Assembly (NCBI RefSeq): GCF_001440415.1
Contig: NZ_LLYA01000181.1
Location: forward strand, 62,001-126,000
Direction: 5' to 3'
Origin: Bradyrhizobium retamae
GTDB lineage: Bacteria; Pseudomonadota; Alphaproteobacteria; Rhizobiales; Xanthobacteraceae
Length of the DNA stretch: 64,000 nucleotides
Shown: positions 44,727 to 49,600 of the stretch, one piece after another
How positions within the stretch are numbered: position 1 is the stretch's first letter
Layout of the letters: each line of letters opens with the position of its first letter
The notes under the pieces: generated by a model
What the model saw: only the letters and a program-made list of their open reading frames with translations
Databases searched by the model: none
What the model was told of the DNA's origin: nothing
Position numbers and translations under genes: made by a program

Positions 44727-45695
44727 ATGAGCGCATTGACTGACGATACACTGCCGGTAACGCCGCGTGCGATGCGCGACGAGATGCTTATGTTCGCGGC
44801 GATGGCGGTGCTGCTGGGTGTTGTGCCGCTGACGGGCATCTACCCGTTCTTCGTGATGCAGGCGCTGTGCTTCGCACTGCTCGCCTGCGCGTTCAACCTC
44901 CTGATCGGCTATGGCGGCCTGCTGTCGTTCGGCCATGCGATGTTCCTGGGAACCGCGGGCTACTGCTCGGCGCATGCGCTCAAGGTCTGGGGCGTTACGC
45001 CCGAGCTCGGCATTGTGATCGGCACCGCCGGCGCTGCCGCGCTCTCCGTCGTCACCGGCTTCATCTCCATTCGGCGGCAGGGTATCTACTTTGCGATGAT
45101 CACACTGGCGCTGTCGCAGCTTCTCTATTTCATCTATCTGCAGGCGCCGTTCACGCATGGCGAGGACGGCATCCAGGGCATTCCGCAGGGCTACCTGTTC
45201 GGAATATTCAATCTCTCCAAGCCCACGGTGCTTTACTACGTGGTGCTCGCCGGATTCCTCGGCGGCTTCCTCCTGATCTACCGCACCATCAACTCGCCGT
45301 TCGGCGAGGTCTTGAAAGCCATTCGCGAAAACGAGCCGCGCGCGATCTCGCTGGGCTACAAGACTGACCAGTACAAGCTGCTCGCTTTCATCCTCTCCGG
45401 AACGATTGCGGGCTTTGCCGGCTCGCTGAAGGTGTTCGTGGCGCAGAACGCTTCGCTCACCGACGTGCACTGGACGATGTCGGGTGAAATCGTGCTAATG
45501 ACGCTGGTCGGCGGCCTCGGCACGGTGTTCGGTCCGGTCGTGGGGGCCTTCGTTATCATCGCCATGCAGCAATATCTGGCCGGCTTCGGCCAATGGGTGA
45601 CGGTGATCCAGGGCGTCATCTTCGTGGCCTGCGTGTTGACGTTCCGCCGTGGCATCATCGGCGAGATCGCGCATTATTTCCGCCGATCCCTCTAA
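44727..45695 (+). CDS. Branched-chain-type ABC transporter permease (LivM-like)
   Basis: 322 residues, about nine to ten helices. CAFNLLIGYGGLLSFGHAMF is the LivM hallmark, and IRENEPRAISLGYKTDQYKL is the cytoplasmic coupling loop. It is last in the operon. The next genes (DUF47-Pit) have their own Pho-box-containing promoter region 100 bases on. Confidence 0.92.
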   Translation: MSALTDDTLPVTPRAMRDEMLMFAAMAVLLGVVPLTGIYPFFVMQALCFALLACAFNLLIGYGGLLSFGHAMFLGTAGYCSAHALKVWGVTPELGIVIGTAGAAALSVVTGFISIRRQGIYFAMITLALSQLLYFIYLQAPFTHGEDGIQGIPQGYLFGIFNLSKPTVLYYVVLAGFLGGFLLIYRTINSPFGEVLKAIRENEPRAISLGYKTDQYKLLAFILSGTIAGFAGSLKVFVAQNASLTDVHWTMSGEIVLMTLVGGLGTVFGPVVGAFVIIAMQQYLAGFGQWVTVIQGVIFVACVLTFRRGIIGEIAHYFRRSL

Positions 45696-45788
45696 AACGG
45701 CGGTTTGGCGCAGTTTTTAGGCTCCACAAAGCGGTGGATGACCCGGTTCCCGGGACCCGACGTCGCGCCCTTTTCCCTCGAATGATCT

Positions 45789-45806
45789 ATGACAGTTTTG
45801 TGACAG
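45789..45806. promoter_or_regulatory. Pho box upstream of the DUF47-pit operon
   Basis: ATGACAGTTTTGTGACAG is the reverse complement of the PhoB consensus CTGTCATAAAACTGTCAT at 17 of 18 positions: two 7-base repeats with a 4-base A/T spacer. It ends 38 bases before the DUF47 ATG. In Sinorhizobium meliloti PhoB represses orfA-pit under phosphate limitation; the same control is inferred here. Confidence 0.8.
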
Positions 45807-45844
45807 ATCGCTCCGCGGCTGTTTCTGAACGACGGAAAATACCC

Positions 45845-46489
45845 ATGCTGCGCTGGTTTCGTGCCTTTTTGCCCAAGGAGGAGCGGTTTTTTGATTTATT
45901 TGCCCGCCACGCCCAGACGGTCGTGCAGGGCGCGCTGGCGTTGCAGGACATGATGCGCGGCGGCGACGAGACGCCGGTATTCTGCCAACGAGTCAATCAG
46001 TTCGAACACGACGCCGACGGCATCACCCGCGAGGTCCTGACCGCGGTCCGCCGCACCTTCATTACCCCGTTCGACCGCGGCGACATCAAGAATCTGATCA
46101 CGTCGATGGACGACGCGATTGACCAGATGCAGCAGACCGCGAAGGCGGTGGTACTGTTCGAGGTCCGAACGTTCGAACCTCCGATGCGCGAAATAGCCAC
46201 GCTGTTGGTCGAGTGCGCCAATCTGGTCAGCCGCGCGCTTCCGCTGATGCAGTCGATCGGCAACAACGTCGCGATGCTGACCGCCATTACTGAGGAAATC
46301 GGAAAACTGGAGGGTCGTATCGACGATCTCCACGACATCGGGTTGAAGGAGCTGTTTCTCAAGCACCGCAACGGCAATTCGATGGATTTCGTGGTCGGCG
46401 CCGAGATCTACAAGCATCTCGAAAAAGTGTCCGACCGCTTCGACGACGTCGCCAACGAGATCAACTCGATCGTGATCGAACAGGTATAG
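45845..46489 (+). CDS. DUF47 (PhoU-like) regulator of Pit transporter
   Basis: 214 residues from the ATG at 45845. All-helical, with FFDLFARHAQTVVQGALALQ, VNQFEHDADGITREV (the conserved E/D metal motif of PhoU-like proteins), TPFDRGDIKNLITSMDDAID and FDDVANEINSIVIEQ. DUF47 proteins accompany Pit permeases and are thought to control their activity. The pit gene follows after 15 bases, matching the orfA-pit arrangement of rhizobia. Confidence 0.92.
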   Translation: MLRWFRAFLPKEERFFDLFARHAQTVVQGALALQDMMRGGDETPVFCQRVNQFEHDADGITREVLTAVRRTFITPFDRGDIKNLITSMDDAIDQMQQTAKAVVLFEVRTFEPPMREIATLLVECANLVSRALPLMQSIGNNVAMLTAITEEIGKLEGRIDDLHDIGLKELFLKHRNGNSMDFVVGAEIYKHLEKVSDRFDDVANEINSIVIEQV

Positions 46490-46504: not shown

Positions 46505-47500
<996 letters not shown>

Positions 47501-47509
<9 letters not shown>

Positions 47510-47824
47510 TCCGGTGACGAGTTTAAGCCCGACGATGCCGGCCACGATCAGTCCAATGCAGGCGAGGCGGGCGGCCGTCGCAGGCTCGCCGAACAGTGCG
47601 ATGCCTAGGATGGCGGTTCCGACCGCGCCAATGCCGGTCCATACCGCGTAGGCGGTTCCGATCGGCAGCGCTTTCAAGGCAAGGCCAAGCAGGAGGATAC
47701 TGCCTGCCATGCAGGCAAGCGTCAGGACGGATGGGATAAGCCGTGTGAAACCCTCGGTATATTTCAGGCCGATCGCCCAGCCCACTTCCATAAGACCGGC
47801 GACGAACAACACGATCCAGGCCAT
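47501..47824 (-). CDS. sugE: SugE/Gdx small multidrug resistance family exporter (guanidinium)
   Basis: 107 residues from the ATG at 47824, with GGAGG six bases upstream. Four helices: [20 protein letters not shown] with the essential membrane Glu (Glu13), then [40 protein letters not shown] and [31 protein letters not shown] distinguishes the SugE/Gdx branch, which exports guanidinium, from EmrE-type drug pumps. The leader carries two ACGR-loop hairpins that match a guanidine-II riboswitch, which strongly supports this assignment. Confidence 0.9.
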
Positions 47825-47844
47825 GACAACCCTCCGAACCCCGG

Positions 47845-47892
47845 CAGGGTCGTCCCCGCGGATGAGCTGCAAAATTGGAAGGCCGTCCTTCC
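47845..47892 (-). promoter_or_regulatory. Guanidine-II (mini-ykkC) riboswitch
   Basis: Read on the minus strand, the sugE leader holds two hairpins with ACGR tetraloops: GGAAGG-ACGG-CCTTCC (47892-47877) and CGGGG-ACGA-CCCTG (47858-47845), joined by an 18-base linker. Two stem-loops with ACGR loops a short distance before the ribosome site are the definition of the guanidine-II class. The GGAGG of sugE lies 9 bases after the second stem. Ligand-stabilised loop-loop pairing would free the ribosome site and turn on the exporter. Confidence 0.85.
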
Positions 47893-47980
47893 GCTGCCGA
47901 TATGGGACTGGCCAGGAGCCCTCGCAACCACCAAATGAGGCTTGATCAGCCTGGTTTTCCCTGCCAAACGCTCGAGCCTC

Positions 47981-49600
47981 ATGTCCGACATTGCCGTTAC
48001 AGCCGAATCGCCGTCCCGCTCGCCGCTATCAGATGAAGTGGCGCGGCGGCGCACATTTGCGATCATCTCCCATCCGGACGCCGGCAAGACCACGCTGACC
48101 GAGAAGCTCCTGCTGTTCGGCGGCGCCATCAATCTGGCAGGGCAGGTCAAGGCCAAGGGCGAGCGGCGCAATACCCGTTCCGACTGGATGAAGATCGAGC
48201 GCGAGCGCGGCATTTCGGTCGTGACCTCGGTGATGACGTTCGAGTTCCAGGACCTCGTCTTCAACCTCTTGGACACGCCCGGTCACGAAGACTTCTCGGA
48301 AGATACCTACCGGACGCTGACCGCGGTCGATTCCGCCGTCATGGTGATCGACGCCGCCAAGGGCATCGAGGCGCGGACGCGAAAGCTGTTCGAGGTGTGC
48401 CGGCTGCGCGACATTCCGATCATTACCTTCATCAACAAGATGGACCGCGAGAGCCGCGACACGTTCGAACTGCTGGACGAGATCGAAAAGACGCTGGCGC
48501 TCGACACCACGCCGATGACCTGGCCGGTCGGCCGCGGCCGCGACTTCCTCGGCACCTACGACGTCGTCAACGGCGGCGTGCGCCTGCTCGAAGGCGGCGG
48601 CGCCAAGACCGGCGCGACCGAGCAGATCGATATCGCCGATCTTGCCGGCCGCAACCCCAATCTCGACGTCGCCGAGATCAAGGACGAACTCGCGCTGGTG
48701 TCGGAAGCCTGCAAGCCGTTCGAGCTGGACGCGTTTCGCGAGGGCCACCTGACGCCGGTCTATTTCGGCAGCGCGCTGCGCAATTTCGGTGTCGGCGACT
48801 TGCTGGAAGGTCTTGGCAAGTTCGCGCCGGCGCCGCGGGCGCAGGACAGCAATTTGCGCAAGGTTGAAGCAGCCGAGCCGCGCATGAGCGCCTTCGTGTT
48901 CAAGATCCAGGCCAATATGGATCCGAACCACCGCGACCGCATCGCGTTCGCGCGGCTGTGCTCCGGCAAGCTCAGCCGCGGCATGAAAGCGAAGCTGGTG
49001 CGGACCGGCAAGAACATGTCGCTGTCGTCGCCGCAGTTCTTCTTCGCGCAGGATCGCTCGGTGGCCGATGAGGCGTTTGCCGGCGACGTCGTCGGCATTC
49101 CGAACCACGGTACCTTGCGGATCGGCGATACGTTGACGGAAGGCGAGGACATCACCTTCGTCGGCGTCCCCAGTTTTGCGCCGGAAATCGTCCGCCGCGT
49201 GCGGTTGACGGATGCGATGAAGGCCAAGAAGCTGAAAGAGGCGCTGCAGCAGATGTCGGAAGAGGGCGTGGTGCAAGTGTTTCGGCCCCGCGACGGCGCA
49301 CCAGCGCTGGTCGGCGTTGTCGGTCCGCTGCAGCTCGACGTGCTGAAGGCACGGCTCGACGCGGAATATTCGCTGCCGGTGGAATTCGAGGTTTCGGAAT
49401 TCCAGCTCGCCCGCTGGGTCTCGTCCGACGACCGCAAGAGGCTCGACGCCTTCATCGCGGCCAACGGCTCGGGCATCGCCGACGACGTCGACGGCGATCC
49501 CGTGTTCATGGCCAGGAACGAGTTTTACCTGGGCTATACCAGGGAGCGCGCCGAAGGGATCACCTTCTCCAACGTCAAGGACGTGAAGAAGAAGGCGTAG
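47981..49600 (+). CDS. prfC: Peptide chain release factor 3
   Basis: 539 residues from the ATG at 47981. A translational GTPase that recycles RF1/RF2 from the ribosome. G1 is [10 protein letters not shown]2 lies in [13 protein letters not shown]3 is DTPGHEDF and G4 is NKMDRE. The RF3-specific C-terminal domain follows, with EGVVQVFRP and [19 protein letters not shown]. Full length for the family. It is divergent from sugE across about 156 bases containing the riboswitch. Confidence 0.96.

Follow-up and report, generated by a model that had tools for sequence, protein, structure and literature searches.

Which part of a guanidine-II riboswitch hides the ribosome site of the gene that it would control? 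The question is raised by a leader on the minus strand of a stretch of Bradyrhizobium retamae DNA of 64,000 nucleotides (hereafter the window). A preliminary description had placed in this leader two minus-strand hairpins with ACGG and ACGA loops ahead of a GGAGG and an ATG, had assigned them to the guanidine-II class and had named a SugE-type exporter as the gene downstream. Both hairpins are present where they had been placed (P1, GGAAGG-ACGG-CCUUCC, loop 47886-47883; P2, GCGGGG-ACGA-CCCUGC, loop 47853-47850; table 1), and 3' of both lie the GGAGG, 8 nt from P2, and the ATG (47824-47822). The scan with the Rfam covariance model proposed there as a check (cmscan, gathering thresholds) returned a single match in the window, RF01068 at 47845-47894 (minus strand), which scores 35.4 bits against a gathering score of 32 (E=0.0022) and was repeated in a 1-kb scan (E=3.4e-05). 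The exporter is likewise borne out, since the 107-aa product of the downstream ORF scores 147.1 bits with the NCBIfam SugE equivalog NF008512 (cut-off 126). The interval given at the time, 47845-47892, omits the sixth P2 pair (C47844) and the likely expression platform. One copy of RF01068 was found in the 8.47-Mb assembly.

Table 1. Features of the sugE leader, with positions in the window and the evidence for each
Feature	Position	Strand	Basis
P1 hairpin of the guanidine-II aptamer	47877..47892	-	sequence, RF01068 match, genus pairing
P2 hairpin, with G.U wobble at pair 4	47844..47859	-	sequence, RF01068 match, genus pairing
P1-P2 linker; weaker alternative anti-SD at 47860-47870	47860..47876	-	forced P1+P2 fold
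Proposed anti-SD: closing G, ACGA loop, P2 3' arm and two next bases	47842..47854	-	MFE, centroid, complementarity
SD GGAGG (47831-47835) and spacer to the start codon, predicted to be sequestered in the OFF state	47825..47836	-	folds, complementarity
sugE/gdx, putative SMR-family guanidinium exporter, 107 aa, ATG 47824	47501..47824	-	NF008512, PF00893, 6wk5 alignment

The element shares with RF01068 (guanidine-II, or mini-ykkC) two G+C-rich stems capped by ACGG and ACGA, a location close to the ribosome site of sugE/gdx, a gene related to guanidine, and a linker of 17-18 nt (18 nt with the 5-bp P2 of the Rfam alignment, 17 nt with the 6-bp P2), the linker range quoted for the class in the available part of one source being 7-40 nt (PMC7544219). 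The aptamer presents no clear difference from the family, and its G.U wobble at pair 4 of P2, counted from the loop, recurs in 42 of 43 Bradyrhizobium leaders. Unusual overall stability of the fold was considered as a further signal and is absent: the 75-nt leader gives z = -1.36, with 17 of 200 shuffles equally stable, and fold energy alone is consequently no evidence. The case for a putative riboswitch rests on the covariance-model match and on conservation.

Could the aptamer have decayed or lost its activity while still resembling the model? Its score exceeds the gathering level by just 3.4 bits, and an ACGR loop is missing in three congeners, where P2 is capped by ACGC (L185) or P1 by ACGC (L196) or AGGC (L197). 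Nevertheless, the window retains both loops, all six P1 pairs and all six P2 pairs, and P1 pairing has been kept through changes on both sides of the stem in the genus, and we regard decay as very improbable. The three congeners themselves may be natural broken switches; the spacers of L196 and L197 are still complementary to P2. Taken as one joint claim, with the regulation predicted, guanidine-II as the class, sugE as the target gene and ON as the direction are in our opinion very likely.

The putative target is a member of the SMR family. Besides the equivalog model, the ORF matches Pfam PF00893, and its best PDB match is 6wk5, an SMR protein which we take to be Gdx-Clo, in an alignment without gaps. 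Residues E13, W16, S42, Y59 and W62 of 6wk5 are all kept in the window SugE, the set used to recognize the Gdx subtype. This alignment and the pocket residues constitute the likeness to Gdx-Clo and to Gdx (SugE) of E. coli, also of the SMR family, and suggest a guanidinium exporter. The roles of the five residues are taken from PMC7695847, in the available text of which W16 is conserved in Gdx proteins and is Gly or Ala in the Qac subtype. The nearest named loci, of Bradyrhizobium sp. CSA112 and B. archetypum, encode proteins with 97% and 98% identity. A single SugE-like match was found in the window genome, and several genomes of the genus have two to four, the second copies being approximately 50-59% identical.

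Upstream of sugE a prfC ORF (47942-49600, plus strand) diverges from it, while a phosphate-permease ORF (46505-47509, plus strand), preceded on its 5' side by a DUF47 protein within 45593-46489 (plus strand), converges on it. A simple consensus scan of 47780-48100 found no sigma-70-like promoter. A terminator-like stem with a T-rich tail lies at 47938-47952 (plus strand), at the start of the listed prfC ORF and ahead of the likely prfC ATG near 47981; it may be due to chance (0.2 expected). Neither a guanidine-I riboswitch nor a TIGR03425 protein has a match at E<=0.001 in this genome, and the window has no match to guanidine-III or -IV riboswitches at the Rfam gathering thresholds.

The distribution of the aptamer was followed in several sets of leaders, with identical ones counted once; because the leaders share ancestry and some belong to more than one set, the counts are not independent. 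At E<=0.001, RF01068 occurs in 40 of 60 genomes of the genus, 90 of 198 of the family and 28 of 289 of the class, tallies made with strict filters by which weak matches are lost. One genome of the genus (G503) has both hairpins, in leader L191, although its tally gave no match. The exporter was found at E<=1e-20 in 56 of the 60 genus genomes. At the sugE loci of named genomes, a gathering-level match is present in 36 of 80 (11, 10, 6 and 9 per 20), and a pair of ACGR hairpins, by a simple rule, in 50 of 80. Thirty leaders of the genus were also fetched through sugE (best exporter matches only, with many genomes shared with the 43 leaders described below): 26 carry both ACGR hairpins, three P2 only and one, by the rule, neither. 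The ACGR loops are thus conserved in orthologous leaders, a point on which the preliminary description had made its assignment depend.

Our source set comprised 139 records: 93 with sugE, 34 in which a guanidine-II RNA precedes a second gene type and 12 others that entered no group. Start codons were picked by rule, and those of L018 and L136 look mis-picked. The second gene type was grouped by a PGGWY-like motif (L005, L014 and L148 are among its records) and yields 29 distinct leaders; when three 70-residue fragments were searched, two had no match and one a weak match to TIGR03425, far below the cut-off. The 43 Bradyrhizobium leaders grouped by origin were required to have an ACGR pair or an Rfam match, the SD being no criterion, and L039, a named Bradyrhizobium locus with no detectable P1, falls outside them. 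In these 43, each of the six P1 pairs is of a standard type in 40-43 leaders, and pairs 2, 3, 4 and 5 have changed on both sides of the stem, while the six P2 pairs are standard in every leader and nearly invariant (in L163, P1 was set to a wrong ACGG in the linker-swap and SD-partner tests and re-picked by best stem for these pair counts).

Folding of the window leader provides a candidate for the hiding element. In the ligand-free fold P1 is kept and P2 is lost, both in the MFE and in the centroid structure. P2 gives way to a predicted helix of 12 bp between the P2 loop and 3' arm with their immediate neighbours (GACGACCCU-G-CCG, G47845 bulged) and the Shine-Dalgarno (SD) sequence with its spacer (CGGAGGGUUGUC), ending at the start codon. 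With a growing 3' end, the MFE structure holds P1 and P2 until the SD emerges, and P2 is gone from 47828 on. The duplex of the P2 loop and 3' arm with the SD reaches -20.2 kcal/mol. For comparison, 46 control GGAGG start sites have a median of -9.2 and no value stronger than -17.4; they were taken from the window and the named loci at open frames of 100 codons or more, which are not proven genes. When 72 GGAGG sites are ranked by duplex strength, the top 11 are all from sugE leaders. The predicted OFF fold lies 7.0 kcal/mol below P1+P2, or 10.6 kcal/mol when the linker is barred from pairing. Such a gap is large when set against the binding of two ligands plus one kissing contact; hence folding is in part kinetic, or else the model overestimates the stability of the helix. 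The U of the P2 wobble is positioned to pair also with the A of GGAGG, and may in this way tune the balance between the two folds. Regarding the claim that guanidine frees the ribosome site, the direction would fit the predicted folds, while the element hiding the site had been left unnamed; the modelled structures and the comparisons below point to the P2 loop and 3' arm.

Such complementarity could also be a by-product of a C-rich arm and a G-rich SD, inherited and unused. The P2 3' arms are indeed C-rich, the control median is already -9.2 kcal/mol, the leaders are all from one genus, and E. coli gdx has some of the same pairing. Nevertheless, the control sites share the GGAGG and peak below the window duplex, and the distribution of the pairing among leaders argues for more than composition. 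According to pairing probabilities, the P2 loop and 3' arm are the main SD partner in 39 of the 43 Bradyrhizobium leaders grouped by origin, in 13 of 49 sugE leaders elsewhere (a group blurred by SD picks that look wrong in some leaders, such as L098, L101 and L112) and in one of 29 leaders of the second gene type. In the remaining four Bradyrhizobium leaders the SD pairs mainly with P1 (two) or with the linker (two). The 3' arm of P1, whose CCUUCC could by eye pair with GGAGGG, was accordingly set aside as the main partner.

The spacer provides a more demanding comparison. When the six bases before the start codon were replaced by random G+C-rich bases (500 and 300 draws), the real spacer beat the random ones at p<=0.01 in 34 of 43 Bradyrhizobium leaders, two of 43 sugE leaders elsewhere and none of the 29 of the second type; leaders with more than 45 nt from P2 to the ATG were omitted, which reduced the sugE leaders elsewhere from 49 to 43, and the replaced stretch includes the base after GGAGG, so that the G run of the SD contributes to the signal. 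At the same threshold, 27 of the 29 gene-fetched leaders with P2 pass. Sequence identity and base substitutions were examined in a further group of 43 genus leaders, chosen partly by P2 and SD, a choice that biases counts at SD positions upward. In this group the five-base spacer has a pairwise identity of 77%, as compared with 47% in the linker and 48% in the gap between P2 and the SD; hence the spacer complementarity has been kept while the linker and the gap diverged. Position -4 of the spacer is C in 30 leaders and T in 13, both of which pair with the loop G, and the variable base of the P2 loop is mismatched in six (G opposite in four, A opposite C in two). Two-sided covariation is undemonstrable within the genus because the anti-SD strand is near-constant, as the aptamer is. 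All in all, with random spacers seldom matching and the pairing mostly absent elsewhere, we find the by-product explanation improbable.

Different P2 arms, each matching a different SD stretch, were observed in L070 (Chelativorans), L088 (Tardiphaga) and L073 (a Bradyrhizobium MAG); in L070, for example, GATGAGG faces CCTCATC. This suggests that SD regions which mimic the 5' arm of P2 may have more than one origin.

The other candidate is the linker which, alone or with the 5' flank, might be the anti-SD and be removed when P1 and P2 kiss, the complementarity of the P2 arm being secondary; this explanation overlaps with the previous one. It has published precedents, as far as the available parts of the sources go. 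In E. coli the anti-SD is proposed to lie in the linker (PMC9094411, PMC9300104), and in P. aeruginosa a P0 helix made from flanking sequences is described along with ligand-dependent ribosome loading and mutants, changes in the anti-SD giving near-maximal, ligand-independent loading in vitro (PMC9561414). Moreover, pairing of the window linker with the SD is compatible with intact P1 and P2 hairpins: in a fold forced to P1+P2, the SD is largely paired, mainly with the linker (47860-47870 with 47826-47835), and the GGAGG is unpaired with a probability of 0.14-0.38. Across the genus, however, the linker behaves otherwise. In the group chosen partly by P2 and SD, the linker:SD duplex has a median of -9.0 kcal/mol, swapped linkers one of -9.1, and the P2 loop/3' arm:SD duplex one of -19.6; linker pairing was neither stronger than that of swapped linkers nor conserved, the linker being far less alike among leaders than the spacer. 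Given also the two leaders of 43 in which it is the main SD partner, the linker is not favoured as the main anti-SD of the genus, and we judge this explanation rather unlikely.

We put forward that the Bradyrhizobium element switches ON the translation of a guanidinium exporter of the Gdx type, and that P2 itself provides the platform. P1 and P2 are predicted to fold first as the RNA is made. Without guanidine, the emerging SD and spacer would invade P2 and pair with its loop and 3' arm, and the resulting 12 bp, predicted from the folds and supported by conservation, would block the ribosome. When guanidine is present, kissing and ligand binding by the two ACGR loops, established in print for the class, would hold P2 closed; the same nucleotides could then not mask the ribosome site, and the exporter would be made. 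The weaker pairing of linker and SD may serve as a second lock. To this whole statement, platform included, we assign a probability of about 0.6. We are equally confident in its form for the genus, namely that Bradyrhizobium has no separate platform and that P2, with its ACGR loop and 3' arm, supplies the anti-SD throughout, an aptamer and platform in one. If so, the complementarity of the P2 anti-SD would extend through the loop and cover the SD as well as the entire spacer as far as the start codon. Guanidine would then be in direct competition with the ribosome site for the same dozen nucleotides.

The leader would thereby offer a testable example of translation control by one of the smallest riboswitches, for which the published answers regarding the platform differ, in the available parts of the sources, between linker, P0 helix and P2 overlap. 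Platforms may also differ by target gene, because the SD of the second gene type pairs mainly with P2 in one of 29 leaders. The retention of the switch suggests that encounters with guanidine are frequent enough for Bradyrhizobium to maintain an exporter that can be induced.

How does this proposal relate to known systems? Guanidine-II is reviewed as a translational switch in the available part of PMC12186494. A full-text search, with two primary papers beyond its reach, returned no paper joining Bradyrhizobium, guanidine, riboswitch and sugE, and no title in the literature listings names a genus-wide P2 platform. With the elements of P. aeruginosa and E. coli the Bradyrhizobium leader would share translational ON control by release of the SD, here predicted; according to the parts of those reports available, their anti-SD lies in the flank or the linker, whereas in Bradyrhizobium it is predicted in the P2 loop and arm. 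The P. aeruginosa element is moreover described as acting thermodynamically (PMC9561414). Pairing of the P2 3' arm with the SD is not unique to the genus, because E. coli K-12 gdx, folded in the same way, shows it partly (0.5), although the duplex is weak (-8.5 kcal/mol). In an E. coli strain that has lost 20 bp over the P2 loop, gdx is reported to be expressed constitutively, and the authors presume the cause to be an exposed SD (PMC13064478, in the part available). The closest likeness is to Gloeobacter, for which a 2017 report, again as available in part, depicts a potential stem-loop that overlaps P2 and the ribosome site and excludes the folded riboswitch (PMC5486947). That is one sequence with a potential stem-loop, whereas the helix predicted in Bradyrhizobium passes through the loop that would bind the ligand, reaches the start codon and recurs across the genus. 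Our proposal elaborates, for one genus, an idea already known and introduces no new kind of platform; what it would add is comparative support, drawn from sequences, for the ligand loop and P2 arm as the probable anti-SD in Bradyrhizobium.
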